Of a DNA stretch of 44,031 nucleotides, positions 5,028 through 41,915 are shown piece by piece. Position numbers and translations under genes: made by a program. How positions within the stretch are numbered: position 1 is the stretch's first letter; each line of letters starts with the position of its first letter. Where the stretch lies: positions 1 through 44,031 of the IMG/VR virus record IMGVR_UViG_3300009182_000114; one strand, 5' to 3'. The notes beneath the pieces were generated by a model. The model ran no database searches. It saw only the letters and a list, made by a program, of their open reading frames with translations, and had not been told where the DNA came from. Origin of the DNA: a virus.

Positions 5028-8000
5028 TTAAGTCAGTATTCGAAGAAGCTTGCTCATTTCAGAGGATATTTGGCTCTGGTTGAACATAATGCTTCCAGAC
5101 ATAAAGTCGCGGACGCCCTTTGTGGCAACTTCCCCGTCCTTTTGTCCGATGTGCTTATTGACTCTATCAATCATCTCTCTCACGAGGTTTTGAGTCTCTA
5201 GAGGTAGATCACTGAATCTCATAACTTTAGTCTGGTCACCGAAGTTTAGCGGTAGGTTGGCAATAACTGAACCTAGCTCCTTGGCTGCAGATCTAACTGA
5301 GTCAAGTGCCTTAGGATCAAGAGCGTGTGAGTCAATTCGATCTACAACTTCTAGAAGTTCGTTTCCAGCCTTAGCCGCATCATCGAGGCGACCATCTTCA
5401 TTTGCTTGTTTAGTTTCTGCGATCTTATCCGCTATGTCCTTTGGAGCTCCATCTGGTCCGAAGCTATCTCCTAGACGTGCAAGAACATCACTAAACTTAC
5501 CTTTTTCATCACGCGGTTGAGTCTCAGCGTTGTACTTTGGCTGTACAGGCTGGTCTTTAACCTCAACCGCTGATGGTTTTCCCAAGTCCACCGGCGTTTC
5601 AATGATAGGTGCGTCAGCAAATTCTTGAACAGACGCAGCCTTCCAGTTTTCAGGAATCAATGTTTCCTTGCCTAATGCCTTGGCTCGTTTACGAATGTGG
5701 GCTCGTACCTTTGCACGATCACCTTTTGTAGAACGACCATACGCATGAATGGCATTTTTTAGATCCTTTTCATTACGAATTGGATATGAACCATCAGGAA
5801 GAGCTTCGCCAGACTTAGCTAGCTTCTCTCTTGCCTTGTCTGAGACTACGGTTAGCTCTGTTAGCTGTGAGCCATCAACTGATAAGCCAGCCGATGCGCT
5901 AATTGCCGCTAAACGCTCTCTTAGGTTCTTTACCGTGAACTCTAGGTTTCCTGCCGCTGTCTTCCAGTCCTCTGGAACAAGGTCAGCTTCTCCTAGTTGA
6001 CGGGCACGCTTAACGATGTGGCTCTTAACCATGTCCTGGCGTCCAGGGTGCGCACGTCCAACAGTGTGAATGGCGTTCTTTAGATCTTCTGAGTTACGGA
6101 TAGGGAACGAACCGTCTGGAAGGGCTTGACCTTTTCCAGCAAGTACCTTACGTTCACGATACGAAACGTAGGTAAAGTCTCCCATGTCAACGGGCTCGTC
6201 CTTCACGCGTGTAGCGAGTTCAGCCATACGTGCGCCAAGCTCTAATTTCTTTTGTTCTCTAACTGGCGCGAAGCGGGCGCGAATAGCATCAGCCTTAGCA
6301 GAAAGTTCTGCTAGTTCCAACTGCTCCAGTTTTTCAATGCGGGAGGCAAGTTCTGCTACCGGGTCTGACTTCATCTTTGCAAGTACACTTGCGCCTGCTG
6401 CAACCAACGCCATTACCTGGCCGGATGCGACACGTGCTCGTGCTATTGGGAATCCAGGTACGTTAACCTGGCAAACCGCAACCAGCTCAAGGCTGCCTTT
6501 GATAGGGCGCCAATCGCCGGAAGGGGCAGACGCGCGTAGAGCGCGGATCTGCTCGGGGGTTGCGCTAGGGCGAAGTGCGCCCGCGACCCAGATGCCGTGG
6601 GCATCTTCTCCTGCATGGACATCTGCTACTGCCGAGGCTGTGTCGTCGTAATGACGAGCAGCTGCCTGAGCGCTTGCCTCTAATGAAGCGTGACCACCTG
6701 CCAACGTTAGTTGGCCAACAGGTGCGTCAATACCTGCGTCGGTGCGAACTACACCTGTGTGGAAATATGCGTACTTACTTTTACTCCGTGGTGGACGGGT
6801 ACCAAATGACATTCCAATATGATCTACATGCCAAGCGGCGATGTGACCAAATACGCGACCCTCATCAGTAACTGTGAGTGGTGTCGCCTTTTGGAGCTTT
6901 GGATCCGTGAACCAGTCTGAAGGTGGAACTACAGGAATCGCGCCGGCGACAAAACCACAAGCAACGAGCGTGGCAGCCTCCGATGGATCCATATCTTCCA
7001 CATAGACTCCGTCTGGTAGCACAGTAGTGGCCTCCTGATTGCTAGTATCGTTGTTATCCTCATTTAGGATAATCCTGCATTCTTGGAAGGCAGGCTTTGG
7101 TACAATGGTAACTCCCATGACGCGTGCCTTCGTGATATTTAGTCGGCTATTACCAACCTTATTTTCTTCTCCTAGAGTTTCAGTTGAAGCTTCTTCCTCT
7201 GCCTCAAACTTATCCATATCCGCGGAGACGCCTCGGATAAACCCGTTACGTACTAAACGCTCAGCTTCCTGACCGTATACGCCTGTATCGAAAACGCCTG
7301 TGGCATTTCCAATTCCTTCGTCTGTTCTTTCCATGTGGTCGATGCGACCAACTACGACTGAACCGGAGTGGCCGTCAGCTGTTTTAATCTGCCACATCAA
7401 AGGAAGTGGTAGATCACGCATCTCAATTGCACCCTTTTGGAAGCGACGTCCGTCACCGGAGTCCTTGTCCTCAGGAATTACTAGTGGAATGGTAAAACCT
7501 GCACCGTCTCCCAAGGGAGCCGTAGGAAGTTCACCACTTGCTATAACGTTCATGCGGTTTCTCGCGTCTCTTGCCTTAGCATTTAGATAGGAGTTTTCTA
7601 GGAACTTGTCAAGTGAAACAAGTTCGGTGTTAAAGTTACCGTGATGCTGGGACTTCTTACCTTCCTCGGCAAGATGCTTGCTATCGCCTGTCCACATGCC
7701 CGTTGCCTCATGATGACGCAACGCACAGTAGCCTTTAGCCCGTGGACCCATGTACTTCATCAAGTGATGATAACAACGTGTCCAATCGCCTGGTGTGTTC
7801 CAGCGGATCTTTGCCGCACCCTTACCGTATAACCAGTAACGGCGAAGCTTTTCAGCGTTACCACGATTACGGTCAAGTCCACCTTCAAACGCAGCGGTTA
7901 CCGCATACGCGTTTGGATCCTGGTCGTCCTCGGCGTTAGGGCTCTCATCGGTGAGCATGTCTACAAGAAGGAAGATGATGTTATCGTCAGGTGTCCACGT

Positions 8001-10532
8001 TGAATCAAAGTGTGGGTCGTTCTCCCGTGAAATCTGCTCTAGTGGCATTTCCAAATCGTCATGTGGAATATCAGTCGCAGGGTTCATCTCAGGTTGCTTA
8101 ACAAGATGTGGATAGTCAAACTGGTCAAGACTTGAGTTATGCTTGCCACGATCTAGCTTTGCGTGTTGAGCAGTCCACATGCCTGTTGCCTCATGATGGC
8201 GAAGTTGGCAATATCCTTTAGCGCGAGGTCCAAGGTACTTCATAAGGTGACGAACGCAACGCTTCCAGTCACCTGGTGTTCCCCAGCGAATCTTTAGTGC
8301 GCCCTTACCGTGTGTCCAATAGCGACGAAGAGTTTCTGCGTTTCCACGATTCCGATCTAGTCCGCCTGCTGCCATAAGTGCAGCTTGCATGATGTCCTGG
8401 CGAGGACCCCACAGTGCGGTAAGAACGTGATCTGCAGTGTAGAGAGAAGCCGTAACGCCATCAACCTGTGTTAACACGCTGCCAAGTGTAGCGCTATCAA
8501 GAGGAACAATTGGAGGAGGAGTTGCAGAGTTAAGATCTGCAAGAATTCCTTCATCACGAATCCACTTTCCGTTGACTCTCTTATAGGTCATCGGAGTGTT
8601 TGACTTAGAGCTTCCAGGAACGACGCTAACAAGTTCAAGAACCGCGCGGGGATCATCTGGAGAAACAATGGCTGCGTAGATAGGTTGAACGTCAGTCGTG
8701 TCTGGAGTTAACTCTGTTCCAACCTCGGCCTTTGGCTTTGGAGTTTCCTCTTCCTTTACGTCTCCTGCGGAGGTAACTGCATATGGAGTACTAGTACTTA
8801 CCGCAGACGCTGGTCCTTGAATTGGCTGATACCAAACGCGATTAGGCGTAAGTGTTCCTCCTGCTGGAGTGGTAACTGTCTTATTAAGCCACGCCGCAAG
8901 AAGAGGATGTTGGTAAGCGTCAACGGCAAGGTTCTTGCCGGTCATCTTTTCCATTTCCTTTTGATACTTAGCGTCCTGTGCGTGTGCAGCATCTACTGGA
9001 TTTACAGCGCTAGGACTTGCTGTAGGTGCAGGCGCAGCAGGCACCTTAGGTTGTCCTGCAAGGAAAGCATCTCGTTGTTCTTTTACCCATGCAGGGAAGT
9101 TGCTAAGAATACTTTGTAGATCCTGTGACGTCATCTGTGGAAGAGTTCCAGGGATCTGTGCAGTTGGAGAGTCAATCGGTGTGCGCGGTTGACCTAAAAT
9201 TCCATTGGTGTCAATTGGAGGAGTCTCGGCTGTTGTTGAGCCAGCAACATCGTTTAGATACGCGCCAACACCTTGAGTTGTATTAGCTGGAACCTCAACG
9301 GTTTTACCACTATCAAGTTTAATAGTTAAGTTTTTTGTATCTGGGTTGATGGCAGTTACGCTTCCAACGCCGTTCTGTGTGTCTCCGCCGATAACAACGC
9401 GAGCACCTTGAGCTGCAAACTTTCCACCGGCGTCACGCACCTGTGAACTAGCGTTCTTTGAGCGTTCCTCGGGAGTATAAACCTTATCAGTTGGAACTAC
9501 GGGAGCTCCAACTGCTGTGATTGCAAAGTCAACCATGTCCCAGTCAATATCTGGGAGAGCCTGTGAAACAAGCATTGCCTCATCAGCGTCGATGTCATCG
9601 ACTGAAACTAATGTAAAAGGATTTTGCTGTAGGCGTGCTGATATGATAACAGCTGAATCAGCGTCTACGACTATCCAATCCTTTTGGCACGTGTCATACG
9701 GGTCATCTAGTGCCTTGTCATACGTCCAGATGTCACCATCAACGTGTCCAAGGTCATCCCAGTTCGCGTCGTCCCAAACGTAAACCTGCCCATCAAGATC
9801 AATCTTATAAAGACGATCCATACCTGAACCGTCAAGACGAACGCGAGTCATGAACGTAGGACCGATCATAGGACCTAGTTTATACGCGTCCTTAAATGCA
9901 TTGGTGTCTGCGTCATAGCTGACTGCGCGAGCATACTCGCTATAGTCTGGAACGTAGCCAGGAAGAGTGTAACCGTCAGCGGTTACCGCTTTCTTGTTTT
10001 CTCTTTCAACGATTGCTTGCGCCCAGCGCCAGCCTGCGTCTCCGCCCCAGAGAGCCCACGCAATACGCCCATTAGAAGGAAAGTTCGGTTCACCTGGCTC
10101 AAAGCCCTTTGCCTTCTTATCGACTTCATGACGAGGAAAATACTTAGCAATATGACGAATAACACGTAGACCAACTTGTCCTCCATTGGATAGAGTGCGA
10201 GCCGTGTTAAGACCTACTGGAGTTCCTCCACGGTGATGTTCCTTATGCCACGCTAAAGCACGCTTAGCTTCATTCTGAACACCTTTAGGAATGGTGTACA
10301 TGCGACCAGCGGAGGCAACAACTGTAATTTCTAGTGAGGTTAGCGCACCTGCCGCAAGATCAGTTACTGAACTTGAGAATTCTTCATCTGAAGGTACCCA
10401 GTGATACGACGACGCCAGTTTACGTGCGTCATCTACTTGGACGACAAGGTTGAGATTCTTGTCAATAACTACACCCTTGTTATTCTCTGAAAAGAACACT
10501 AGCGAGTTAGACGTACCAACAGCTTTTGGCAT
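5028..10532 (-). CDS. giant capsid-maturation polyprotein with prohead protease, GIRW-type and DUF6582-like repeats
   Basis: 1834 aa, far longer than a usual prohead protease (200-700 aa). In order: residues ~1-200 carry an early domain (IPKGVQNEAKRALAWH...FPSNGRIAWALWGG). A KOW-like segment at ~370-425 follows an RDAGGKF motif. Two ~65-residue repeats at ~720-790 and ~880-950 share GLDRNRGNAE, GKGA-KIRW and LRHHEATGMWT. A serine prohead-protease-like core at ~970-1160 (LPLPLMWQIKTADGHSGSVV, with the His near 1054) precedes the actinophage capsid-maturation module at ~1220-1400 (GHIAAWHVDHIGMSF, YAYFHTGVVRTDAG). Two DUF6582-like repeats lie at ~1460-1530 and ~1567-1635 (ALPDGS-PIRN--DLKNAIH). 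A helical tail ends it. ATG at 10532 overlaps the upstream TAA by one base (TAATG). It is probably self-processed into several head proteins (inference). Confidence 0.8.
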   Translation of the reverse strand: MPKAVGTSNSLVFFSENNKGVVIDKNLNLVVQVDDARKLASSYHWVPSDEEFSSSVTDLAAGALTSLEITVVASAGRMYTIPKGVQNEAKRALAWHKEHHRGGTPVGLNTARTLSNGGQVGLRVIRHIAKYFPRHEVDKKAKGFEPGEPNFPSNGRIAWALWGGDAGWRWAQAIVERENKKAVTADGYTLPGYVPDYSEYARAVSYDADTNAFKDAYKLGPMIGPTFMTRVRLDGSGMDRLYKIDLDGQVYVWDDANWDDLGHVDGDIWTYDKALDDPYDTCQKDWIVVDADSAVIISARLQQNPFTLVSVDDIDADEAMLVSQALPDIDWDMVDFAITAVGAPVVPTDKVYTPEERSKNASSQVRDAGGKFAAQGARVVIGGDTQNGVGSVTAINPDTKNLTIKLDSGKTVEVPANTTQGVGAYLNDVAGSTTAETPPIDTNGILGQPRTPIDSPTAQIPGTLPQMTSQDLQSILSNFPAWVKEQRDAFLAGQPKVPAAPAPTASPSAVNPVDAAHAQDAKYQKEMEKMTGKNLAVDAYQHPLLAAWLNKTVTTPAGGTLTPNRVWYQPIQGPASAVSTSTPYAVTSAGDVKEEETPKPKAEVGTELTPDTTDVQPIYAAIVSPDDPRAVLELVSVVPGSSKSNTPMTYKRVNGKWIRDEGILADLNSATPPPIVPLDSATLGSVLTQVDGVTASLYTADHVLTALWGPRQDIMQAALMAAGGLDRNRGNAETLRRYWTHGKGALKIRWGTPGDWKRCVRHLMKYLGPRAKGYCQLRHHEATGMWTAQHAKLDRGKHNSSLDQFDYPHLVKQPEMNPATDIPHDDLEMPLEQISRENDPHFDSTWTPDDNIIFLLVDMLTDESPNAEDDQDPNAYAVTAAFEGGLDRNRGNAEKLRRYWLYGKGAAKIRWNTPGDWTRCYHHLMKYMGPRAKGYCALRHHEATGMWTGDSKHLAEEGKKSQHHGNFNTELVSLDKFLENSYLNAKARDARNRMNVIASGELPTAPLGDGAGFTIPLVIPEDKDSGDGRRFQKGAIEMRDLPLPLMWQIKTADGHSGSVVVGRIDHMERTDEGIGNATGVFDTGVYGQEAERLVRNGFIRGVSADMDKFEAEEEASTETLGEENKVGNSRLNITKARVMGVTIVPKPAFQECRIILNEDNNDTSNQEATTVLPDGVYVEDMDPSEAATLVACGFVAGAIPVVPPSDWFTDPKLQKATPLTVTDEGRVFGHIAAWHVDHIGMSFGTRPPRSKSKYAYFHTGVVRTDAGIDAPVGQLTLAGGHASLEASAQAAARHYDDTASAVADVHAGEDAHGIWVAGALRPSATPEQIRALRASAPSGDWRPIKGSLELVAVCQVNVPGFPIARARVASGQVMALVAAGASVLAKMKSDPVAELASRIEKLEQLELAELSAKADAIRARFAPVREQKKLELGARMAELATRVKDEPVDMGDFTYVSYRERKVLAGKGQALPDGSFPIRNSEDLKNAIHTVGRAHPGRQDMVKSHIVKRARQLGEADLVPEDWKTAAGNLEFTVKNLRERLAAISASAGLSVDGSQLTELTVVSDKAREKLAKSGEALPDGSYPIRNEKDLKNAIHAYGRSTKGDRAKVRAHIRKRAKALGKETLIPENWKAASVQEFADAPIIETPVDLGKPSAVEVKDQPVQPKYNAETQPRDEKGKFSDVLARLGDSFGPDGAPKDIADKIAETKQANEDGRLDDAAKAGNELLEVVDRIDSHALDPKALDSVRSAAKELGSVIANLPLNFGDQTKVMRFSDLPLETQNLVREMIDRVNKHIGQKDGEVATKGVRDFMSGSIMFNQSQISSEMSKLLRILT

Positions 10533-11623
10533 TACTGCTGCTCCTCTGATGCTTGGCTATCGTCTGTAATTGGTCCACCTACTACCCACGCGTCACATGT
10601 ACGTGACGATGCGCACTTAAAGTCAAATGCCTCACAGTACCCAAGCTCTGCAGTGTCAATCGCGTCCCATGCATTTTGTGCGCCAGAGTCACCGGCGGCA
10701 AGACCGCCTTCGATACAGTCAAGCATCTTCTTAGTACGAATAAACATTACACAGTTTCCACACACGCTCTTACGAGCGTCATCAGACGCTACTCCCCAGC
10801 GGTCTGCCTTCTTCTGCCAAAAATCGTCGTTAGGCTCTTTTGGATTCAGCGGACCATATCCACCTTTGTCGATAGCGTGCTGGCGATTAGCAAGATTAGC
10901 GGCAATGTCCTGAGTAGCAACTGGGCATGAGTCAGCTGTATCAGCACCAGCCGCAGTTACGGGTCCAAGGTTAAAAGGCACTTCATACTTTGCAAGATCA
11001 TCAGTAAGAATAGGCTCGTTATTTGCCTGTGCCATATCAAAGATCTTTGTAAACTTAGGGTCGATCTCGTTAACCTCAAGATCGTCAAGGGAGTCATCAC
11101 CTTCGGCAAGCTTGTGCCAGTTCTTGTTGTCACGGATGTAAAGACCAGAATCATTTGAGTACACTAGGTACTTGACTTGATTAGTATCTGTGTCTACCGC
11201 AGCGTATAGGTTCTCATCGTCTGCTGGTGCGTCGGGAGAAAACGCTGTTTCAACTTCAGTCATTAACCGTTCCTCCAGTGCCTGCGCAGGGACGTTTGTG
11301 TGCAGCTGTGAAGCCCACAAACCGTCTGTATCAACGAATGCTCTTACTGTATAGATTTTACCGTAACTTGAGAATGTTATGTCTCCTCTTTGGGCATTTA
11401 GATGCACATCCTGGGCTCTAACAAGAGGGTAATAGCGATTTCCGTTTATTGAGTATACAACAGCATTTGGCGCGTCATCTAGAGTTTCTACGCCCATTCC
11501 ATAGACTGGCATAAACATGGGTGCGTCTACGTCGTCCTTAAAAGATAGCACCGCTGGTCCTTGCAGGTAGATGCCCTTGTCCTGCAGTTCTTGAGTTGTA
11601 AACGTTAGTTGTCGACTGTCCAT
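10532..11623 (-). CDS. head-associated protein with Cys-rich C-terminal domain
   Basis: 363 aa. The N-terminal ~200 residues are beta-rich (MDSRQLTFTTQELQDKGIYL, NGNRYYPLVRAQDV) without a recognised family. Residues ~230-345 contain seven or more Cys in a spaced pattern (CPVATQ, CGNCVMF, LDCIEGG, GYCEAFDFKCASSRTCDAW). This recalls Cys-rich domains of phage head proteins that look like small iron-sulfur or zinc proteins; the metal is unknown. ATG at 11623 has AAGGACAA in front. It sits between two giant head genes, which suggests co-packaging or an internal head role (inference). Confidence 0.6.
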   Translation of the reverse strand: MDSRQLTFTTQELQDKGIYLQGPAVLSFKDDVDAPMFMPVYGMGVETLDDAPNAVVYSINGNRYYPLVRAQDVHLNAQRGDITFSSYGKIYTVRAFVDTDGLWASQLHTNVPAQALEERLMTEVETAFSPDAPADDENLYAAVDTDTNQVKYLVYSNDSGLYIRDNKNWHKLAEGDDSLDDLEVNEIDPKFTKIFDMAQANNEPILTDDLAKYEVPFNLGPVTAAGADTADSCPVATQDIAANLANRQHAIDKGGYGPLNPKEPNDDFWQKKADRWGVASDDARKSVCGNCVMFIRTKKMLDCIEGGLAAGDSGAQNAWDAIDTAELGYCEAFDFKCASSRTCDAWVVGGPITDDSQASEEQQ

Positions 11624-11629
11624 TTGTCC

Positions 11630-14600
11630 TTATGCCTTCTTTCCTACTACGATAACTTGGTCAAGTGGACGTCCACCCAACGTGGTAATTCCCATAGCGG
11701 TGAGCTTTGTAATCACTGCGTCACGTATATCTGAGCGCATGACAACTACGTCAAGATCTTCCCAGGCAATACGGTGCTTAAACATAACCTCGTAGGCTCC
11801 AACCTTAGCAGCAGAGATAACATCCTTATTCGGTGTTCGTTTTCCATAGGCGTCGTGTTGGTTGGCGTAGAAGTCAAGACGCTCGTAAAGTTTTAGAGGA
11901 TCAAAGTATAAGGCAGGAGCAGACCCCGACACTCCGTACTCCTTGGCAGACGCATTTGCAACAGGCTTAGTAAAGACGTAGTCTGCACCGCCCGTTGGAA
12001 CGTCAGACTGACTAGACATGCCGTTGGTGCCAATTCCCTCGCTCCATCGGGTTGTAGTAGACAGTAGTCCACCCTGAGGAGTTGAGAATAGAGCTACAAG
12101 CCAGTTAACTTCCTTATCTTGATATGTAGCACCTGGAGTTTCTCCTGTGTACATACTTAGATTGTGTTGGATAGCCGCAGGTTTACCTGTTGCCTCCCAG
12201 ATTTTTTGCGCACCTTCTGGTGAAAGACGAAGTTCAACACGTCCACTTGCACCAGGTACTACCTGAACGTCCTCTGGTGTAATCCCCCACTTGTCCTTAA
12301 TACGCGCAAGACTTTGCTCTCTTAGGTTGCCCTTAGGGTTTGTGTTGGCATCTGTCTTTGCGTCAAAGATACTCATTAGACGGTTTTCAATAAGAACTTG
12401 AATGTCAGCCTGCGTAGCAGGGCGATTAGCTGTAACGCCTGCAAGAGAAAGAGCCTCGGCAATTTGGTCAGGTGTTGCCGTTGCAGGAGCTTGGATATTT
12501 ACAGTGTTGTGAAAAGCTCTTGGAGCCTTTTCATAATAATTACTTGAAAACTTATTCGTAGCGTCCTTATTAGCACGGTTAATACGAATTGTTATTCCAT
12601 CCTTAGTGCGAACTACCCATGTTAGACCACTGTTACTTGTATGGCCAGCCTTTTCTGGGTTAATCTGTCCGACTCCATCAGAACCAACGTCAATTCGTAG
12701 AATCTTAAACTGTTCAGACATTACGCCGTTCTTTTCATTTTCTTCCTTAGAGTTCTTTAGGAAGCTAGCTATAAGATCGTTTGCTGCCCAGCTAGTTAAC
12801 TTAAACTTATATAGGAAACCGTCAACGCCCTCTGCGTCCTTAACGTGCATTACACGAAGGTCAAGATCCTCTATCGAGTCGCTATCAACTACAGCAGATG
12901 CACCTTTTATACCATTTGCTTTTTCTGATGTATCAGTAACCTTGGAAACTGCATCAGCTAAAGAAGGAATGTTATTAAAATCAGACTTAGACCAGTCAGA
13001 CGGCTCTGACACGATGATTGGCGCAACACCTGCTCCTGTTGCCTTCTTACTTCCCTTTGTCTTAGATAACTTAGGAAGACCATCGTTGTTTACAGCGCCG
13101 GTAGCAGAGACAGTTTTTGCGCTTCTCCAACCTTTACTTCCGTCTTCAAATTGAACAAGTGCATAGTTCTCGGCATTAACCTTTATGATAGTTCCCTTTG
13201 CACCTTTCTTATCTGTAATCTCAATTCCTTGATAGACCTCATTACCACTTGCATCGGTAATGGTCATCGTTCCTTCAGGAGCTGCAGGAATTCCTTCAGG
13301 AGGAGTTTCAATATCTGGTGTTAAAGCTTTTTGCAAATCTGCAGAGCTAGCGACTGCGTCTTCCTTGCTTGTCCAATCGACTCCACCTTCAGCAGATATC
13401 TCGGCAATTTGCTTGTCGCCAGGTTCCCATGAACCTTTGTAAACACTGATGCCCTCTGTCTTTTGGCCAGGTCCTTGGTTTGGACCAAAGAATGTAAAGC
13501 CGTCTTTTTGATAATAGTTATCATTACCCATGATGCCAGATATAAGATTCGCAATATCTGCTTCTCGAACTGTGTCTAGTGTTTCACTCGACGCTTGAGG
13601 CTCCTCAGGGGCAGCAGGCTCAGTTTTAGATTCAGGTTGCGCTGGAGCTTCCGGTGCTATGTCTTTGGGAGCAGCCGGCGCAGGAGTTTCCTCAGGCGCC
13701 GTTGGAGCTTTTGGGACTGGTGATACTTCTTCTCCACCACCGCCAGGCAGCGATGATAGCTGCTTGGTAGATTTAACCTTAGGCTTAGTTTCTCCGTCAC
13801 CTTGAACGTAGACGTAGCTGGCGTTTCCGTTATCAAATTTAACAACAGTGCCGACGTCACCTGTCTTGTTATGCTTTACCTTCATGCCAACAGTAATGTT
13901 AACACCATCAGAAGTGGTGTAGACCTTTTCACCTGTTGTCTCAGGTGTCGGTGTTGACACGGTGTCTGAGATTGTGTTTGGCTCTTCAATCTTTGCGTTA
14001 TCTACTATCGTAGACGTGTCCTCGGCAAGAAGTCCATAACGATCTAAGATGTCGTAGCGACGAGCCTCAAGAGTTGTTGTTAGATTAGAAGCAGTCTCTG
14101 GATCAGAGATAACAGAGTGAACAAGCGTGCCGATCTCTTCATTCGAGATGTTAAGAAGTCTACGCGCAGATTCCTTCTGCTGTTCCTCGGTCATTGAGCC
14201 AAAGATAGCTGACGATTGAGGATTCATCTTAGAGTCACGAAGAGTATCTAGCTCAGTAACCTTGTCACCAAATAGTTTTCCTTTAGGCGCACCCATAGCA
14301 CGGAAGAGAAGCGCTCCACCTGGGTCTACACGGACAGGGTCTCCGTTTTCGTCAGTAACTACGTTATCAAACGCTAACCCTGCCACGTCCCAGTTGGCAA
14401 GCCAGGCGTCAACAGCAAAGCCGTCCTGTAACTTAGCAAGATATTCCTTGTCCTTAAGCTTAGACTGCAGATCTTCCTGAGCGCCAGGAACCATTGGAGA
14501 GTAAACCTTTAGTGCGCCGTCTTCACCTGAGCCCATGTACATCTCTGCGGCAGGAACGTCAAGTGCACGATACAACGCAGACGCAAGCACCTCGTTTTGT

Positions 14601-17600
14601 GCGTGCAGCTCAGACTTAGGCGTCTTGATGTACGCTTGATTTCCTTCAGGGTCCTCGTAGGTTCCACCTTCGTTAGATCCCTTTTGACCGCCAACCTTCT
14701 TGTAAGGTGCTAGGTCATACTCAGCTGCAATCTCGTTTGCAAGATCTGTGACTGGGCTGTCAGAGAGACTATCTGCTACTGGAGGATTTTCATCGGCAAC
14801 GGCGTGAGCTCCGGGCTCGGTGTTTGCAATGTCATCTAAGATTTCATTAGTGTCAACGCCTTGAATCTGAAGAGCGTCACGGATTGCCTCAATGGGGATA
14901 GACGACGTGTGCTCTTCATCAAATTTTAGCTGCGCTGTGCCAGATCCGTCCTCGATACCTGCACGGAAAACTTCTACTAGATCTTCTGACGCATAGTCAC
15001 GCGCAATAGACAGTGGATCATCTGTGACAACGTCACCCTCTGCGTTTGCCGGCAAGTACTTATCAGGGTCAGGAACATGATAGCCTTCAGGAAGTTCTAC
15101 TGCCTTATTTTGTAGTAAGAACTTATCAGAGTTACTACGATACGCGTTTAGAACAGCGTCGCGTTGCGAAAGCTTTTCAAGGGTAACGCCGTATACGGTC
15201 TTGCCGTTCTTTTCCTCTGTAACCTTTACCTTTGTTACGGTGTAGTCTCCCCAGACAACGTGCTCACGCTCGTCTTCGTACATGCTCGTGTTTGTTGCAT
15301 CAAACGCTGTAGCTTGTCCTGGTTTTACTTGAATTATGACTGAAGCCTTATCACTATCTGCGTTCCAGTTGCGAGAGTATTTCTCAGCTTGAATTCTGTC
15401 GTCTGAGAACGAGCGTGGGTCGATTGAAACAAATCCGCCTTGAGTAGTGTACGACTCTAGTGACTCGGAGTCAACGTTAAGTTCAATTCCTCTGTACAAG
15501 GTTTTCTGGTTATCAGTACCTAGATAGTTCATAAGCTTAAAGTAGGAACCTGCCAGCGAGTCAGGAGAGTTAATATCTTCCTTCCCCTGAGCTACGTAGA
15601 GCTTAGACGCAATTAGCTCGTCAAACGTTCCCCATTTTTTAACAAAGGCAACAACGTCTTCATCCGATGAGGTTCCGTTGTGCTTTCTGATGGCCATGTC
15701 AATAGCATATCCAAAATCGCTGTCACCATCGTTAAAGTCTGCTGTGCCTCCGTCAAGTGCAGTAAGAAGTCCCCACATCGCACGGAATGCCTGCTGGTCA
15801 TCAGGGTTATCAGAGAATGCCTTGTCAATGTGATCAGTCAGTAATGACTTATATCCTTCGTAGTTTCCAGCTTCATTTATAGCCTTAAGACTGTCTCCTA
15901 CGCTTGTAAGACTCTTGTTCTGTTCATCTCCAGAGTCCTTAGCGTCACTCATCATGGCAACGCTGGTTATCGCAACCGACGGAGTTGCTAGCTTAGAGTG
16001 AAGCTCTAGGATCCCCTTATCAACTGAAAGATCATCAAATAGTACAGAAGGCGATTGAGCGTTTATTTGCTCTTGCTTGTTGTCACCCTTAAGTGCAGAC
16101 GTGTTCTTGTTTTCACCGAGCGCTGAATCATAGATCTCCGCGACAAGACGATCTGCGTCAACGCCTTTTTCCTTTAGCGCCTCGTAGATTGCCTCGGCAG
16201 GAACGTATTCTTCTCCAGCCTTAAAGTCAAGTGCGCCTGCACCGCTTGCTACGTTTTTAATCTCTACAGGTTTTGGCTTAGGGCCAGGCTTAGACTTCTT
16301 TGCTGGAGCTTCTTCATCGTCCTCGCCGATGGTGTCAAGCTCTTGCTTGAACATCGCTGCAAAATCCTTTTTACCGATTAGCGCCTCGGTAAGCGCACCT
16401 GCTAGTTCATCCTGCGTAAACTTATTAGCGATAACCTTTGGATCATCTGTAAAGTCAGAGCTGTCCTCATCTACACGTCCCTGTGGTTCATACTCATACT
16501 TTGTTTGAAGCTTATACGCGTTATTAGGGACTGTCCAATCAGTGAATGACTTGTCTGCACTTGTAGCAGGTTCCTCGGTAGGCGCTGTTGGAGTAGCAGG
16601 CTCCTCTGGAAGAGTTGCAATTGGTTCTTTCTCTTTAGGAGGATTATTCTTGTTCTCCGGCATAAGATTAAACGTCGCTGAGTTAATCGCGTATAGACGA
16701 TTTTCTTGTTCCTTTTCAGCCTTACTTGGGAAATCAGGCATTGGTCCCATGTTAGACTTGTCTTCAGAGTCTGCAGCGTACTTTGGATAGTTATCCTTTA
16801 GATACTGTCTAACTTCCTCACGGGTTGCTCCGGAGTCAATAAGCTTTGCAATGTCTTCATTATTAAAGTCGTATTGGTCAGCGTATGCTGCTAATGTTTT
16901 CTTAGTTGATTCGCGACGCTTAAGCATCTCCTTGTTGTACGCGTCAGGAATGGCAGCTTCAACTTCGTCCCATGACTTATAGACATTTCCATCAAAACTA
17001 ATACTGCCATCATCACTAAGTTTTGCTGGCAGACTAACAGGGGGTTCATCACTGACGCGCTTGTTATACTCTACAAAATGATGCTTGTCCTTGGCAAGGT
17101 CGTTATGCAGACTTGCGTAAAGAAGATCCTTAGATGAACCGGTCCATCCTTCTGGCAGATCGTTGCCATTAACATCTTTATTTGTAGCATGATTTTCATT
17201 TATCTCTGCTATAACCTTTTTGTTACTTTCACGCTGAGCCTGCTTTGCTTCAACGGCAGCTTTTTCTTTATCACCTTGAGTCTTGATAAGTGCCTGCTGC
17301 TCATCGTGAGCCTTTTGGTACTCAGGCATAGCCTTATCAAACTTGTCTTGATCCTTTTCAGCGTAGTCTTGAGTATCTGACCAGGTCTGCATGATGCTTA
17401 CGACTGCGTCTTTCTTTCCTGTAAACGGGTTCATACGAGAAAGAATATAGGTTGGAGACTTTCCATTAAGCTTAGGAGCGGTAGCCTTTTCTGCAGGAGT
17501 TGTAGCCTCACCTACAGCTTGCCCGTCGATGTTTTTAACTACCGGACTTGAATCCTTAAGGTCTGGGTCTGAAGTTGAATACTTAGTGTTTTGCTTAAAT

Positions 17601-18655
17601 GCGTTGTTAATGCCCTTGCCTGCAGACTTGTTTCCAGGGTTATAAACCTCTACGATGTAGTTATCATCAGACTTAAATATCTTGTCTGGTCCAGTATCTT
17701 GTCCGGTGTTATCCTCAACAAGATCCCATCCGTCTGGAGAATTTTTAGGTTTTAGATCTGAGAACTCTACTGCCTTAACGCCAGATGGAAGTTGAACGTT
17801 TGACTCGTGATCCTTAACTGCGCCTGATGGAAGAATTGCCTTAATGGCCTCTGTCTTGCTTGTAGGGATATCATATAGTCCGTCAGGAATTCCTTCAACT
17901 CCATGAAGCTCGACGGTATAGTCTCCGGGGTTTGATGAGTTGCCAGAAAATCTTCCAACGACGCTGTGAATTGCGCCATCAAGCATACGCATGAAGAACT
18001 GTAGTCCTCCGCCTTCCTCAGCAAATCGGCCTTTACGGTCACGACGCTGTAGACGAGCGCGAAGAGAACGAGACGCGGAGTCGTTTCCAGCAGCGATGAG
18101 AGCTGAAACAGAGGTGTCAACGCGAAGTTCCTGTGGGATAAGTCCAGCGGTTAAGGCTTGAACACGAGAGAAAGCATGAAGACGCTCTACTGAGTATAAA
18201 GGCTGAGAATAAGCAGACGCAACAAGTTCCTTTACTGATTCATCAATGCGAGGATCCGCTGCGACCCAGCGCGCCTGTGCTTCACGCATTGAGAAGTTCG
18301 TCATGAAGTGTGAGCGCGATGAAAGCGGGTGACCTACAGGAAGAAGATCAGTGTGCTCGTTCTTGCCGTTGATGTGCTCACCATTATGAGCTAGAGAAAG
18401 AAATGACGCAACCTCGCGGTACGCTGAGAAAAATCGTGTTTCATTTGAGAGAGAAGCTGTCTTGTTGAGAGAACGTGACGCGACTGTAAACGCGGACTTA
18501 ATTGAAACCTGGCGTTCAACGCCAACCTTGGCGTTTTCAGACTCGACGAGGGACGTAATTGACGCGCGAAGACTCTGTGAACTCTTAGGTTTTATCCTTG
18601 GAGATATCGCCTCTCGTTCCTGCGCTGCAACTAGTCTGCTTATAAGTGAGTCCAC
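11630..18655 (-). CDS. 2341-aa head-associated protein with two ART-like domains and a kinase-like domain
   Basis: GTG start at 18655 with AGGA 7 bases upstream. N-terminal ~220 residues: helical segment with a DLLPVGHPLSS motif shared with the next upstream gene, ending in RDRKGRF. Residues ~1050-1150: VIP2-type ADP-ribosyltransferase signature (LYRGIEL Arg, GGFVSIDPRSFS in place of STS, EDEREHVV as the ExE). Residues ~1310-1500: kinase-like fold of HipA or PI3/4K type (AYIKTP Lys, WLANWDVAGLAFDNV, VRVDPGGAL). Two KOW-like modules at ~1585-1620 and ~1815-1840. C-terminus ~2170-2341: a second ART-like domain (LLSTTTRWSEGIG, YEVMFKHRIAWEDLDVVV). Low-complexity Pro/Ala/Glu linkers join the modules. 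Possibly packaged and ejected with DNA to modify host proteins (inference); enzymatic activity is unproven. Confidence 0.75.
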   Translation of the reverse strand: MDSLISRLVAAQEREAISPRIKPKSSQSLRASITSLVESENAKVGVERQVSIKSAFTVASRSLNKTASLSNETRFFSAYREVASFLSLAHNGEHINGKNEHTDLLPVGHPLSSRSHFMTNFSMREAQARWVAADPRIDESVKELVASAYSQPLYSVERLHAFSRVQALTAGLIPQELRVDTSVSALIAAGNDSASRSLRARLQRRDRKGRFAEEGGGLQFFMRMLDGAIHSVVGRFSGNSSNPGDYTVELHGVEGIPDGLYDIPTSKTEAIKAILPSGAVKDHESNVQLPSGVKAVEFSDLKPKNSPDGWDLVEDNTGQDTGPDKIFKSDDNYIVEVYNPGNKSAGKGINNAFKQNTKYSTSDPDLKDSSPVVKNIDGQAVGEATTPAEKATAPKLNGKSPTYILSRMNPFTGKKDAVVSIMQTWSDTQDYAEKDQDKFDKAMPEYQKAHDEQQALIKTQGDKEKAAVEAKQAQRESNKKVIAEINENHATNKDVNGNDLPEGWTGSSKDLLYASLHNDLAKDKHHFVEYNKRVSDEPPVSLPAKLSDDGSISFDGNVYKSWDEVEAAIPDAYNKEMLKRRESTKKTLAAYADQYDFNNEDIAKLIDSGATREEVRQYLKDNYPKYAADSEDKSNMGPMPDFPSKAEKEQENRLYAINSATFNLMPENKNNPPKEKEPIATLPEEPATPTAPTEEPATSADKSFTDWTVPNNAYKLQTKYEYEPQGRVDEDSSDFTDDPKVIANKFTQDELAGALTEALIGKKDFAAMFKQELDTIGEDDEEAPAKKSKPGPKPKPVEIKNVASGAGALDFKAGEEYVPAEAIYEALKEKGVDADRLVAEIYDSALGENKNTSALKGDNKQEQINAQSPSVLFDDLSVDKGILELHSKLATPSVAITSVAMMSDAKDSGDEQNKSLTSVGDSLKAINEAGNYEGYKSLLTDHIDKAFSDNPDDQQAFRAMWGLLTALDGGTADFNDGDSDFGYAIDMAIRKHNGTSSDEDVVAFVKKWGTFDELIASKLYVAQGKEDINSPDSLAGSYFKLMNYLGTDNQKTLYRGIELNVDSESLESYTTQGGFVSIDPRSFSDDRIQAEKYSRNWNADSDKASVIIQVKPGQATAFDATNTSMYEDEREHVVWGDYTVTKVKVTEEKNGKTVYGVTLEKLSQRDAVLNAYRSNSDKFLLQNKAVELPEGYHVPDPDKYLPANAEGDVVTDDPLSIARDYASEDLVEVFRAGIEDGSGTAQLKFDEEHTSSIPIEAIRDALQIQGVDTNEILDDIANTEPGAHAVADENPPVADSLSDSPVTDLANEIAAEYDLAPYKKVGGQKGSNEGGTYEDPEGNQAYIKTPKSELHAQNEVLASALYRALDVPAAEMYMGSGEDGALKVYSPMVPGAQEDLQSKLKDKEYLAKLQDGFAVDAWLANWDVAGLAFDNVVTDENGDPVRVDPGGALLFRAMGAPKGKLFGDKVTELDTLRDSKMNPQSSAIFGSMTEEQQKESARRLLNISNEEIGTLVHSVISDPETASNLTTTLEARRYDILDRYGLLAEDTSTIVDNAKIEEPNTISDTVSTPTPETTGEKVYTTSDGVNITVGMKVKHNKTGDVGTVVKFDNGNASYVYVQGDGETKPKVKSTKQLSSLPGGGGEEVSPVPKAPTAPEETPAPAAPKDIAPEAPAQPESKTEPAAPEEPQASSETLDTVREADIANLISGIMGNDNYYQKDGFTFFGPNQGPGQKTEGISVYKGSWEPGDKQIAEISAEGGVDWTSKEDAVASSADLQKALTPDIETPPEGIPAAPEGTMTITDASGNEVYQGIEITDKKGAKGTIIKVNAENYALVQFEDGSKGWRSAKTVSATGAVNNDGLPKLSKTKGSKKATGAGVAPIIVSEPSDWSKSDFNNIPSLADAVSKVTDTSEKANGIKGASAVVDSDSIEDLDLRVMHVKDAEGVDGFLYKFKLTSWAANDLIASFLKNSKEENEKNGVMSEQFKILRIDVGSDGVGQINPEKAGHTSNSGLTWVVRTKDGITIRINRANKDATNKFSSNYYEKAPRAFHNTVNIQAPATATPDQIAEALSLAGVTANRPATQADIQVLIENRLMSIFDAKTDANTNPKGNLREQSLARIKDKWGITPEDVQVVPGASGRVELRLSPEGAQKIWEATGKPAAIQHNLSMYTGETPGATYQDKEVNWLVALFSTPQGGLLSTTTRWSEGIGTNGMSSQSDVPTGGADYVFTKPVANASAKEYGVSGSAPALYFDPLKLYERLDFYANQHDAYGKRTPNKDVISAAKVGAYEVMFKHRIAWEDLDVVVMRSDIRDAVITKLTAMGITTLGGRPLDQVIVVGKKA

Positions 18656-18664
18656 GTGAGTGTC

Positions 18665-19258
18665 CTATCGTAGATTCTTTGGAAGAAGGTCTGAGTCTTT
18701 ACTTTTATCTAAGGCGGAAGCTAGAACGGCCGCGCGGTCAAACGGAGACTCGTTGTCGCGTACTCCACGCATCCACGCTGCACGTAGTGCAGGAATTCCT
18801 TCATAGCTTAACGTTGAAAGCTCTGCCATAGCGACTAGTGCATGCTCCGGAGATTCGTAGTCTTCCTCAGATAGAAGTTCAGCAAAGATATCATTGTCTT
18901 CACTGTTAAACTCTACAGAGGCACTTGCCTTAGATGATTTTGGATGTCCGTGAGGCAGTAGATCGTTATCCTGCACATAGTTAGAGTTAGCAGGACGCCC
19001 TGTGCGAAGGAGACGTAGAAATGCATTAACGCGAGCCATTGCCCACTGATTGCGATCTGTTCCTAGTCGATGAGAACTAGAGTACGCACCTGCACCACGA
19101 CGGTACACGGCCTTAAGCATTCCAAGAGTTGCCTTGCGCCCGTCGGACGCCTTGGCATTATGCTCTTGAACTTTGTTCTTAAGGGTAGCGGTTACCTCAG
19201 CGCTAAAGTTAATCTTGTTTTTAGCGCTGGATGCAGGACGTACACCAGTCGAGGTCAT
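18665..19258 (-). CDS. head-module protein with GAGAYSSSHR / DLLPxGHP domain
   Basis: 197 aa. Residues ~50-120 (YRRGAGAYSSSHRLG, NQWAMARVNAFLRLLRTGRP, DNDLLPHGHPKSSK) form a domain common in actinophage head modules and in some bacterial prophages; its function is unknown to me. The C-terminal half is helical, with Ala-rich segments. The start is 7 bases after the Dps-like stop, with only a weak Shine-Dalgarno, so it is probably coupled. The DLLP-GHP motif recurs in the N-terminus of the downstream 2341-aa protein. Confidence 0.68.
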   Translation of the reverse strand: MTSTGVRPASSAKNKINFSAEVTATLKNKVQEHNAKASDGRKATLGMLKAVYRRGAGAYSSSHRLGTDRNQWAMARVNAFLRLLRTGRPANSNYVQDNDLLPHGHPKSSKASASVEFNSEDNDIFAELLSEEDYESPEHALVAMAELSTLSYEGIPALRAAWMRGVRDNESPFDRAAVLASALDKSKDSDLLPKNLR

Positions 19259-19264
19259 CTTTAA

Positions 19265-19831
19265 TTATTTCTCGTCGTCAGAGTTTCCGTCAAGACCGAG
19301 AGTTGAGCGAAGCTGCCATTGCCACTTCTGATGCATTTCAATGCGCGCAGCAAGGAAGTTACAAGCACCTTGCTGGTTGATAGCGTTACACGCATCAAAC
19401 GCAGCCATAAGGTCAGCGATGGTTACCTTGTTAATTGCATAAAGGTTCTTTGATAGACTGATCGGGTCAAACGCGTCACCCTCTGTGTCAGGAACGTTTG
19501 TTGCGTCAGCGATGTCTGAAAGATTCATTGGAGCATCAAAGCCAAACTTACGAACGATCTCTGCAAGATCATCAACTGACTCAAAAACGTCTTGATAGAT
19601 ATCACCAAAGAACTCGTGGAACTGGGCAAAGTCTTCACCGCGAACGTTCCAGTGTGAGCCGTGCGCCTCAAAGTACATGGTAAAGGCATCTGCCATTGCA
19701 ACGTAGACTGCCTTTGCAGCTGAAGGTTTATCAGTGGCGGGCATCATCATTCCTGTTTCTTCAGTAGCTTCTGGCATCATGATGATGTCGTCGCCACCCA
19801 TATCGTCTTGCATATCCATTGGACTTGACAT
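19265..19831 (-). CDS. Dps/ferritin-like protein
   Basis: 188 aa, with a Met/Asp-rich N-terminal extension of ~35 residues and then a Dps core. The ferroxidase pattern is intact: HGSHWNVRGEDFAQFHEFFG supplies two His, and SVDDLAEIVRKFG supplies Asp and Glu, as in bacterial Dps. Dps proteins form 12-subunit shells that oxidise iron and can coat DNA. The gene lies between portal and head proteins with 2-base and 6-base gaps, so it is expressed with the virion genes. ATG at 19831 has AAGGAG 8 bases upstream. The setting suggests a virion or DNA-packaging role rather than simple stress defence (inference). The acidic Met-rich tail is unusual. Confidence 0.87.
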   Translation of the reverse strand: MSSPMDMQDDMGGDDIIMMPEATEETGMMMPATDKPSAAKAVYVAMADAFTMYFEAHGSHWNVRGEDFAQFHEFFGDIYQDVFESVDDLAEIVRKFGFDAPMNLSDIADATNVPDTEGDAFDPISLSKNLYAINKVTIADLMAAFDACNAINQQGACNFLAARIEMHQKWQWQLRSTLGLDGNSDDEK

Positions 19832-19833
19832 TA

Positions 19834-21603
19834 TTATTTCTCCTTAGTTATTTCTGAAACTGGCTCAGCGATAGGCGCTGGAGTTTCTTCTGCCGGTGCA
19901 GTTGTTGTTGGGGTTTCTTCAGCGGGAGCTGGAGTTGCCTCAGGTGTTGGTGCTGTGTCTGCTGAAGGACCCTTAAGCAAACGCTCCATCTCAGGAGAGA
20001 TTGGAGCTACTGAGGCAGCCTGTTGTGCCATGCGGGTTGCATGCATAACATCTGGCGCAACTGCACCAAGCATTGACTCAGTAAGATCAGGTGAGATAGC
20101 GCCCTTCTCAATGAGAAGACGAAGTGCTAGCTCTGTAGGTGATGGAGCGTCAGCCTCGGAGAATCCGTGAGCGCGACGCCATGAATCGAACGATACTGCC
20201 ATACGGTCAAAGCCAGAGTCAGCGTCAGCTGCACGGTCATTACGTGTTGCAACCTGTGATGCATCAAACCAAATTGTGATGCGCTCAACGTCAACTGGGT
20301 TGAATCCGTTAGCAAGAAGATAAGGGCGTAGATAAACTACTGTAATTGAATCACAGATAAGAAGAAGTAGTGGCTCAATGTGTGCCTTGTATAGAGCTTC
20401 ATCAATCTGCAGCGCGTTCGAGTACTTAACGTTAGCAAGACCCGTTACTACATCCTTAGGAACATCTAGGCCCTGAAGGATACGTTCAAGTACGCGATCT
20501 GCACGTTGTGCAAGCGCAGGGTCAAACGAACGTTCAAACTTAAATTGTTTGATCTTGTCGCCAAGCTCTGCAGGTCCACGAATAACAAGAGGTACGACAG
20601 CGGATGCGGATTCCTCGTCGCGAATTGGAGTTGTCATTGCATCGATGAGTTGATCCTCAAACTCGTCGGCTGACTCCTCGGGAGTAATGCCTTCGTTTGT
20701 TAGATCTGCGTCATCACCATATGGATAATCTGGATCTGGAGAGGCAGCAACAGAAAGTCCGTCTGGCAAGTACAGTGCACCCGCGTTTAGACGCGAGCGT
20801 GCAGTTGCACGGAACGTTCTGTTGAGGAGAAGTAGCTCTGCGCAAAGATCAAGAAGTCCACGTAACGAAGAGTCAGACTCTTCAGAGTAGCGTGGGTGCG
20901 ATTTCCAGATGCGACCAATGAATGCATTTGGAGGAAGAGGAATTGATCCGTTCTTCTGACCCGAGCCTGCTTGATATTCACGACGTGGGTTAATAACAAA
21001 AGCGCCCTTGGCGTTGATCTGTAACTCATCTACTGAGCGAATATCCCAGGACTCTGGAATGTTATGTCCGATACGCTCCGGAACTTGAATTAGATAACAC
21101 TCGCCCGCAACGCAAAGGTTAAGAGCTGCATCGCGAAGAAGACCAGCCTGTCCGCCGTATGCGGAGTCAAGACGTGTTAGTGCACGCTCTGCGGCGGACG
21201 CAAGACGTGCGTCAACCGTGTCAGAGTTACGAATAGGGACTGGTGTCTCCGCTGGATCTTGAACAACCGCAGCGTAGAGACGAATACGAGATACAACAGA
21301 TGCAACTAGGTTAAACGCGTACTTGATCTCACCTATCGCGTCGTAGTACTCCCAAGCTTCAGCTTGCCATGAAGATGAAGATGAGATACGGCGTTGACGG
21401 AAGCGTTCAGCTTCACCTTTGTCGTTAAGGTTTAACTGAACTGCCGCAGCGGTTAAGCCACGTGGGTAATTGTAGACAACTGGGTCTGGAGAAGAATAAT
21501 TTAAGATGCTTGTTACGTTAGCTGAGGAAGAGCGTGTTGCTGCAGCTCTGCGCTGGGCACGGTTCTGTGGTCGATTGTTGTTGTCTCGACTGAATACGGC
21601 CAA
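19834..21603 (-). CDS. portal protein
   Basis: 589 aa. TTG start at 21603 preceded by GAGGAGCTTAAA. The sequence matches actinophage portals: a low-complexity N-terminus, then WEYYDAIGEIKYAFNLVASV (the first conserved helix), PLVIRGPAELGDKIKQFKFE, LERILQGLDVPKDVVTGLANVKYSNA and a polar Pro/Ala/Thr/Glu tail. The portal is the dodecameric DNA entry ring at one capsid vertex. It lies downstream of the terminase and upstream of the Dps-like gene, as expected in head modules. The DVPKDVVTG segment is the signature I rely on most. Confidence 0.9.
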   Translation of the reverse strand: MAVFSRDNNNRPQNRAQRRAAATRSSSANVTSILNYSSPDPVVYNYPRGLTAAAVQLNLNDKGEAERFRQRRISSSSSWQAEAWEYYDAIGEIKYAFNLVASVVSRIRLYAAVVQDPAETPVPIRNSDTVDARLASAAERALTRLDSAYGGQAGLLRDAALNLCVAGECYLIQVPERIGHNIPESWDIRSVDELQINAKGAFVINPRREYQAGSGQKNGSIPLPPNAFIGRIWKSHPRYSEESDSSLRGLLDLCAELLLLNRTFRATARSRLNAGALYLPDGLSVAASPDPDYPYGDDADLTNEGITPEESADEFEDQLIDAMTTPIRDEESASAVVPLVIRGPAELGDKIKQFKFERSFDPALAQRADRVLERILQGLDVPKDVVTGLANVKYSNALQIDEALYKAHIEPLLLLICDSITVVYLRPYLLANGFNPVDVERITIWFDASQVATRNDRAADADSGFDRMAVSFDSWRRAHGFSEADAPSPTELALRLLIEKGAISPDLTESMLGAVAPDVMHATRMAQQAASVAPISPEMERLLKGPSADTAPTPEATPAPAEETPTTTAPAEETPAPIAEPVSEITKEK

Positions 21604-22842: not shown

Positions 22843-24237
22843 TTAGCGAACCTTAAATACCGTAGAACGAAGAGAGGGGATGCGCCGATTTGAGTGAGAC
22901 TTGGCGGTGATGTGTCCACCAACAAATCCTGCAGGAGGTTTGATGAGGAGCGCGGTTAGCGCGTGAACTAAAGCGTCAACGCGGTCAGGAGACTTACCTT
23001 CACCTGGAATCCAGCTCATCATTTGAGATTCAAGATCAGCTAGGTAGCCGATGTGGTGAACACGTCCTTGCTCGTATGCAAGGGTGATAGGCTCCGCACG
23101 TAATTGCTTTCCAACCTTAGAGTGAACCTCTAAAACCTTTACGCTTGGGTCAATCGTGTTAATTGCATTGCGAACGAGCGCACCGCCTTGGTTTACCTCG
23201 GCAATAACTGGGCAACCCCACTTGCGTGCCATCTCGACAACGCGGTTAGCCCAAACGTCTGGGGAGCCAAGAATTGATGCGTCCTCAAGTACCCAGGACT
23301 GCCTCTTGTAAAGATCTCGCTCGCCGGTTGATGCAACAACAACGATACCGCACTCGTCTCGTGGATTTTCAGCGACCGATGGGTCAACGCCGATGCAGCG
23401 TAGAGGTGTTCCTCCAGGAAGAGCGCCCTGGCGATTTCGTTCAATAAGTTCCTCGGTCCAGAGAGCGCCTTCAACCTGATCTAGCATCTCGCCGTAAAGT
23501 TCCTGCTGCGCTAGGCGCGTTCCCTCGTAGACGCCCTTGATTGCGTCAAGGTACGCGGCTGAGAGGTTTCCGGAGTTGTCCATAGTTGAACCACGGGTAA
23601 TGATTACCTTGCCGGTCTTTTCAGCCTCGGCCATAAGCGCGTAGAGAAGAGGAACTCTCTTAGGAGTCGTCGTAACCACGATCTTTGGGTTAAGTCCAAG
23701 ACGAGTACCAACACGTAGGTTATCAAACGCTGTCATACCTGCCGCGTCGGGAGTCTGCCTCCAGGCGGCAACCTCGTCACCCCAGGCGTGCGTGAATTGA
23801 GGACCACGGAGTGAATCAGGTTCATCCGCGGTAAAACATGTGGCGGTGTTTCCGTTAGGCCAGGTTAGTCTTCGCTTTGACGGTTCGTATAGTGGGCGCT
23901 CGCTTGGAGGCGTCACGTTAATAATTCCGGACTCACCTTCAACGATAACGTCACGAACGTCAGCTGCGGTACGAGCAACGAGCGCAAAGCGTCTCTGTCC
24001 GGTGTTCGTGTACTTCGCAGTCTCGCGAACCCACTCAGCTGCCGTGCGTGTTTTACCAGCACCGCGACCGGCGATGTACGCCCAGATATTCCAGTCATCA
24101 GGCGTAGGAGCCTGTTGTTCAGGACGTCCCCACAGCGACCAGTCAAATAGAATTTGGTCTGGATCCATACCTTCAAGTACGGCTGCACGTTCCTCGTCAC
24201 TGAGAAGCGCGAGTTGCTCCATGATGCTCTTTGCCAT
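22843..24237 (-). CDS. terL: terminase large subunit
   Basis: 464 aa. ATPase domain: Walker A at AYIAGRGAGKTRTAAEWV (residues ~51-68), Walker B around THAWGDEVAAW, and coupling motif VVTTTPKR. Nuclease domain: first acidic residue in CIGVDPSVAENPRDECG, second in VIAEVNQGGA, third in SPDRVDALVHALTALL. These are the catalytic Asp/Glu positions of an RNase H-like headful or cohesive-end nuclease. The enzyme packages phage DNA through the portal. ATG at 24237 has AAGGA 11 bases upstream, lying within the end of the preceding HTH gene. Confidence 0.95.
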   Translation of the reverse strand: MAKSIMEQLALLSDEERAAVLEGMDPDQILFDWSLWGRPEQQAPTPDDWNIWAYIAGRGAGKTRTAAEWVRETAKYTNTGQRRFALVARTAADVRDVIVEGESGIINVTPPSERPLYEPSKRRLTWPNGNTATCFTADEPDSLRGPQFTHAWGDEVAAWRQTPDAAGMTAFDNLRVGTRLGLNPKIVVTTTPKRVPLLYALMAEAEKTGKVIITRGSTMDNSGNLSAAYLDAIKGVYEGTRLAQQELYGEMLDQVEGALWTEELIERNRQGALPGGTPLRCIGVDPSVAENPRDECGIVVVASTGERDLYKRQSWVLEDASILGSPDVWANRVVEMARKWGCPVIAEVNQGGALVRNAINTIDPSVKVLEVHSKVGKQLRAEPITLAYEQGRVHHIGYLADLESQMMSWIPGEGKSPDRVDALVHALTALLIKPPAGFVGGHITAKSHSNRRIPSLRSTVFKVR

Positions 24238-35177: not shown

Positions 35178-35190
35178 TAATTATATCAGG
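35178..35190 (-). promoter_or_regulatory. CCTGATATAATTA promoter (copy 9), overlapping a stop codon
   Basis: TATAAT ends 44 bases before ATG 35135. TGA 35186-35188 of the upstream gene supplies the TG. Confidence 0.78.
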
Positions 35191-41859: not shown

Positions 41860-41891
41860 TTGGTTTCCTTCCGTCATTTGTACTGATGGGA

Positions 41892-41904
41892 TAATTATAT
41901 CAGG
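41892..41904 (-). promoter_or_regulatory. CCTGATATAATTA promoter (copy 16)
   Basis: TATAAT ends 34 bases before ATG 41859, giving the VWA gene its own promoter separate from the AAA+ gene. Confidence 0.79.
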
Positions 41905-41915
41905 TGCCCCAGTTT

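Follow-up and report, generated by a model that had tools for sequence, protein, structure and literature searches.

Why does a phage encode, in the midst of its head genes, a protein of 2341 amino acids with the look of several enzymes? The question is raised by a giant gene at positions 11630-18655 (minus strand) of the 44,031-base IMG/VR virus record IMGVR_UViG_3300009182_000114, the whole of which is referred to here as the window. The gene has a GTG start and its open reading frame (ORF) is intact. The original prediction, which did not give the strand, had described the product as a head-module protein with two ADP-ribosyltransferase (ART)-like domains and a kinase-like domain, and had suggested that it may be packaged and injected to modify host targets early. 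The observation is confirmed by the analysis reported here and the interpretation is partly supported. The residue ranges proposed earlier were nearly right: the first ART covers residues ~938-1159 (previously 1050-1150), the kinase ~1317-1540 (1310-1500) and the C-terminal candidate ~2122-2335 (2170-2341). What is most worth following is an uncatalogued kinase family, to which this protein belongs, and its tie to ARTs.

The kinase domain and its fusion to ADP-ribosyltransferases

The kinase domain (residues ~1317-1540; positions 14036-14707, minus strand) is of the HipA/CtkA type. Its key residues are nearly invariant among the aligned unique domains: K1344 and E1355 are each present in 143 of 144, D1423 in 144 of 146, and N1431 and D1444 each in 145 of 146. 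Judged from this conservation, the active site is intact and does not have the pattern of a pseudokinase. The catalytic loop reads NWDxxGxxxDN and the metal motif DxGG; the HipA proteins that we examined carry NxDxHxxN in place of the former.

Structure prediction of the modules, which had been proposed as a check on the original prediction, gave confident ART and kinase folds. The AlphaFold2 model of residues 930-1560, which spans both domains, has a predicted local distance difference test score (pLDDT) of 93 and a predicted template modelling score (pTM) of 0.84; for this and the other model described below, the input alignments were restricted to sequences from the window and from contigs, and excluded annotated database records. 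In the kinase part of the model the C-lobe is helical. The top Foldseek match of the model in the PDB is Helicobacter pylori CtkA (3akl; E = 2.5e-5), with many protein kinases lower in the list. The HipA/PI3-4K-like core recognized earlier is thus borne out by the fold match and by the conserved catalytic residues. At the sequence level, HipA_C was matched weakly by 22 of 75 kinase members and HipA_2 weakly by five in Pfam searches, and hhalign gave HipA a probability of 15.9%, above all other profiles tested (≤6.5%). The window protein itself has no kinase or ART match in Pfam, NCBIfam or PHROG, HipA_C included, and PDB profile searches by sequence returned no relative for the kinase, ART1-plus-kinase or C-terminal alignments. 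Current domain libraries miss this kinase family.

One scan of IMG/VR yielded 256 stretches encoding the kinase domain, and one genome scan found it in 49 bacterial genome records; isolated phages that carry it infect Gordonia, Yersinia, Enterobacter, Aeromonas, Pseudomonas and Morganella. Among the loci, which were fetched by the kinase query alone, an ART-type domain is present in 80 of the 111 large kinase ORFs compared with seven of the 174 large ORFs that lack the kinase (Fisher p = 3.5e-36, a nominal value, since the sequences are related). When R-S-E ARTs alone are counted, the figures are 70 of 111 and five of 174. A Pfam scan of 39 diverse kinase proteins identified PF03496 in 19, MuF in 13, PF01129 in seven, NUDIX in five (NUDIX_4 in one), minor capsid protein 2 in three and LPD23, a 'large polyvalent protein associated' domain, in one. 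A recognized head gene lies inside the fetched stretch at 124 of 191 kinase loci, some of which overlap on one contig. Fusion of the kinase to ARTs recurs in phages of several phyla, and the combination, which had been called unusual, is a recurrent one within its own family. The intact catalytic residues of the kinase family, its presence in phages and bacterial genome records of several phyla and its frequent fusion to ARTs in head genes suggest that these phages have an early-infection strategy in common, one that can be tested.

The family also includes more elaborate arrangements. Relatives at loci L021, L022, L034, L061 and L075 are 2686 to ~4980 amino acids long, some being cut by the contig end, and have at least two ART domains; the L021 protein has two kinase domains within one ORF. 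At other loci (L049, L059, L076, L079 and L085) a long kinase ORF adjoins a second kinase ORF of ~500-570 amino acids. Locus L210 belongs to a Pseudomonas juntendi plasmid that is phage-like and carries phage genes; in its head module, at positions 6576-10976, the kinase is part of a 'NUDIX domain-containing protein' flanked by a minor head protein and a protease.

The ART1 domain

ART1 (residues ~938-1159; positions 15179-15844, minus strand) is predicted to have the fold of an R-S-ExE ADP-ribosyltransferase. Its R1055, S1082, E1129 and E1131 occur in the order expected of R-S-E (VIP2/Alt-like) ARTs and are retained in 89, 84, 89 and 100%, respectively, of 19 unique sequences. The Foldseek search of the PDB with the model of residues 930-1560 retrieved HopU1 (3u0j; E = 4.2e-4) and ExoS (6gnj; E = 6.1e-4), both with a probability of 1.00; the output carries no residue ranges, and both matches were assigned to the ART1 part by us. 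The Pfam scan of the window protein gave no PF03496 match in ART1, and hhalign found no match between ART1 and phage VIP2-like ARTs (probability 0.4%). The assignment of ART1 therefore rests on fold and residues, and these agree with the VIP2-like R-S-E reading proposed for this region.

The C-terminal domains

Two domains follow at the C-terminus. C1 (residues 1873-2117; positions 12305-13039, minus strand) has a confidently predicted fold for which no family was matched. C2 (residues ~2122-2335; positions 11651-12292, minus strand) is probably a divergent ART of DarT-like character, its pattern being H-Y-E. H2164, Y2226 and E2289 are kept at 96-100% in 26 unique C-terminal sequences. In the AlphaFold2 model of residues 1862-2341 (pLDDT 93.4, pTM 0.92), H2164 is located within a strand, and Y2226 and E2289 are found at the starts of later strands. 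Among the 50 PDB matches listed for this model, only DarT entries have a Foldseek probability of at least 0.25 (7omu, 0.75; 7omv, 0.51; 7yk3, 0.25). The best matches in a viral library are uncharacterized giant-virus proteins (probability 1.00, E = 8.7e-3). The DarT Pfam model is weakly matched by two of 47 C2 members (best E = 0.0016), with no match in the window protein itself. Alignment of the C2 and DarT profiles by hhalign gave a probability of 26%, with the region of the catalytic glutamate aligned and all other profiles at ≤1.8%; the DarT alignment used still holds at least one wrong-strand row (L226), so that this value is supporting only.

The target of C2 could be nucleic acid. No DarG-like antitoxin was recognized. 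The second ART-like domain that had been placed at the C-terminus is favoured by the conserved H, Y and E and by the weak retrieval of DarT, as a divergent candidate of a different type from ART1. Double ADP-ribosylation of host proteins, as the pairing of two ARTs had implied, is not established by this arrangement.

Domain organization and the head module

Profile searches with nine pieces of the giant protein against the ORFs of relatives were used to define the order of its domains. In the close clade this order is kept: N-terminal region, middle region, repeat, ART1, repeat, kinase, KOW-like linker, C1 and C2. Homologues with the identical order occur in IMG/VR and in phage DSL-LC01. The middle region (residues 331-668; positions 16652-17665) is kept in the close clade, with no function assigned. 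The repeat unit, identified by the same searches, occurs at residues 706-854 (positions 16094-16540) and 1185-1289 (positions 14789-15103). The linker before C1 (residues 1567-1854; positions 13094-13957) contains a stretch rich in proline, alanine and glutamate and tentative KOW/SH3-like segments. All of these are on the minus strand, as are the genes described below. The low-complexity linkers of the original prediction are evident as proline-, alanine- and glutamate-rich stretches, whereas the KOW-like modules that it also named are weakly backed (MSSS SH3, E = 0.27; phrog_7955, E = 0.0014).

The N-terminus is built from modules that are also found in nearby genes. Submodule a (residues 5-120; positions 18296-18643) is common to the 197-amino-acid protein encoded directly upstream (E = 2.9e-41) and corresponds to much of that protein. 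Submodule b (residues 130-311; positions 17723-18268) is common to the prohead-protease polyprotein (E = 6e-34). Because its N-terminal modules are common to both of these neighbouring head genes, which is the best hint contained in the sequence, the giant protein is probably docked into the procapsid by its N-terminus.

The gene order on the minus strand is as follows: TerL (22843-24237), portal (19834-21603), a Dps/ferritin-like gene (19265-19831; PF00210, E = 7e-15), the gene for the 197-amino-acid protein (18665-19258), which matches DUF5824, the giant gene and, directly after it, a gene for a 363-amino-acid protein (10532-11623). These are followed by a gene for a polyprotein of 1834 amino acids with a prohead-protease part (5028-10532), the major capsid protein gene (2933-4897), a gene for a 364-amino-acid protein and a major-tail-protein-like gene (649-1701). 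The giant gene had been described as next to the portal; the head module is right, but the Dps-like gene and the gene for the 197-amino-acid protein intervene. In the phage collection searched, a relative of the Dps-like protein was found in one phage only, Synechococcus phage S-SRM01.

Proposed function

Building on a gene, folds, catalytic residues, synteny and a fusion that were established computationally, we infer how packaging, ejection, enzymatic activity, targets and purpose might fit together. We consider it rather likely that the giant protein is a head-packaged polyvalent effector which is ejected with the DNA and modifies the new host by means of its kinase and ARTs. The N-terminal modules would dock it in the procapsid, and the long protein would leave the head with the DNA, either whole or after its linkers have been cut. 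Inside the newly infected cell the HipA/CtkA-type kinase would be active and might phosphorylate a host target; ART1, in the manner of T4 Alt, might ADP-ribosylate a host protein; and C2, the DarT-like candidate, might modify another substrate, which could be nucleic acid. All this could serve host takeover or the disarming of defence within the first minutes. We favour this reading because head-module synteny is seen in the window, in DSL-LC01 and in many IMG/VR relatives; because MuF or minor-capsid domains occur in many relatives; because one relative, Yersinia phage fHe-Yen8-01 gp129, bears the annotation 'ADP-ribosyltransferase toxin; phage particle associated protein'; and because the concept of polyvalent proteins, and of ARTs packaged in phage heads, is already established (PMC5512222 and PMC9503650).

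Several observations weigh against a head-packaged effector of this kind. The gp129 protein annotated as particle-associated has only the kinase domain in common with the window protein at a detectable sequence level. The giant protein has no MuF domain (no PF04233 match), its N-terminus being of another kind. The template modelling score of the kinase model to CtkA is moderate (0.53 by target length), and the Foldseek search of the PDB with the model of residues 1862-2341 gave no significant match, the E values of DarT for C2 being about 0.35-0.74. Furthermore, the ART1 motif is degenerate in some close relatives (L018 and L024), in which the arginine is replaced by lysine and the E-x-E is altered; ART1 is therefore not essential to every phage. 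The last point, together with the modules shared with other head genes, would suit a mainly structural or scaffolding head protein whose enzyme-like domains are relics. We regard this as very improbable, as the kinase catalytic residues are nearly invariant and the R-S-E or E residues of both ARTs are largely kept; a purely structural protein would not be expected to preserve catalytic residues so well.

The principal alternative concerns what the kinase acts on. The kinase-fold domain may be an in-cis regulator of the ART, modifying ART1 or the carrier chain so as to keep ADP-ribosylation off during assembly or to turn it on after ejection. The frequency of the fusion (80 of 111 compared with seven of 174), far above expectation and in unrelated phages with different N-termini, speaks for such a role, and there is a precedent in Legionella, where the kinase-fold protein SidJ inactivates ART effectors of the SidE family. 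No ART was detected in 41 of 142 kinase ORFs, some of them short, however; the kinase (gp78) and ART (gp80) of Gordonia phage Forza are encoded by separate genes, and the position of the ART relative to the kinase varies among relatives, all of which makes regulation in cis rather unlikely in our estimation. A broader proposal, which we put forward as doubtful, is that a widespread, uncatalogued head-packaged family couples an atypical HipA/CtkA-type kinase and ARTs as one functional unit, the kinase controlling ADP-ribosylation in the newly infected cell or acting in sequence with it, and that a DarT-like ART modifying nucleic acid has been added in the window clade. A role as a polymorphic toxin of the MuF type, serving competition between lysogens and non-lysogens and not the infecting phage, is in turn improbable. 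Passages of PMC5576092 describe MuF toxins with ART domains in temperate phages, and MuF domains are found in many relatives (13 of the 39 noted above), but none is detectable in the window protein, no immunity gene was recognized adjoining the giant gene in the window, and the domain order is constant in the clade, with no swapping of C-termini.

Other genes of the window

Four further genes, all on the minus strand, were noted. A Proteasome-beta/HslV-like protein is encoded at 31824-32420 (PF00227, E = 4.4e-6), and an 'HslV' gene is also present in DSL-LC01. A MoxR-type AAA_5 ATPase (40075-41928; E = 3.9e-21) and an adjoining VWA CoxE-like protein (41964-42947), the latter below the Pfam cut-off, form a chaperone-like pair. 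A protein of 137 amino acids (35186-35599) has the look of a small ART by eye (LYHCAP...INAEGL), with no Pfam match and no relative in the phage collection.

Comparison with known systems

The closest annotated homologue is WJZ48510.1 (3289 amino acids) of DSL-LC01, which is located between the portal and the capsid maturation protease. It resembles the window protein in domain order and in its place in the head module, and differs in being longer, in sharing ~33% identity over the aligned parts and in being annotated merely as hypothetical. The genome of DSL-LC01 was assembled from a metagenome, and its hosts are predicted to be Actinomycetia (PMC10611076); by analogy the window phage may have a similar host.

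The 'ADP-ribosyltransferase' proteins of fHe-Yen8-01 (gp129), Aeromonas phage ST4 and Pseudomonas phages Dolphis and Jeremy share the same kinase (38-41% identity) and an ART, which in gp129, ST4 and Dolphis is VIP2-like and C-terminal to the kinase. The N-terminal, ART1 and C2 domains of the window clade are not detectable in any of the four, and our literature search found no paper on fHe-Yen8-01. Of the proteins of known structure, CtkA is the best fold match to the window kinase, which shares the K, E, D, N, D pattern of CtkA and HipA, with HipA_C weakly matched in many members; the sequence is nevertheless too distant for a family match and the catalytic loop differs. DarT resembles C2 through structure, Pfam-member and profile matches that include the region of the catalytic glutamate, each test being weak alone. 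T4 Alt is not known to have a kinase domain, and ART1 is only distantly related to it; Alt is itself an R-S-E ART that is packaged in the head and injected (PMC5512222).

A later survey describes frequent MuF fusions of Alt/VIP2 ARTs and places 44% of the ARTs of phages in contexts suggestive of head packaging (PMC9503650); for Microbacterium phages, PMC7302621 reports MuF-VIP2 fusions and a predicted virion-associated protein of >4,400 amino acids. These fusions and the MuF toxins resemble the window family in that a head-module gene beside the portal joins a head protein to a VIP2-like ART, and many relatives of the window protein combine MuF, kinase and ART. The passages concerned (PMC7302621, PMC9503650 and PMC5576092) describe no kinase domain, whereas the window protein lacks MuF and has a second, DarT-like ART candidate.

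The giant protein belongs with the polyvalent proteins, which have been described from phages and conjugative elements and for which packaging and injection are predicted (Iyer et al., 2017; PMC5512222). Like them, it is very large and multidomain, combines several disparate catalytic domains, ARTs and a kinase among them, in one polypeptide, and is encoded among the virion genes of a portal-terminase phage. The kinases of polyvalent proteins have lost the C-terminal subdomain and have a conserved His and Asp with an insert (PMC5512222), whereas that of the window protein is of the HipA/CtkA kind; its modelled C-lobe is helical and its loop reads NWD...DN...D. Enzymes injected by phages offer many mechanisms of host takeover, yet very few of these enzymes have been characterized. 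In the searchable papers, neither this kinase family nor a fusion of it to R-S-E ARTs was found to be described. The class is already known; what is new is a HipA/CtkA kinase joined to R-S-E ARTs and to a DarT-like end.
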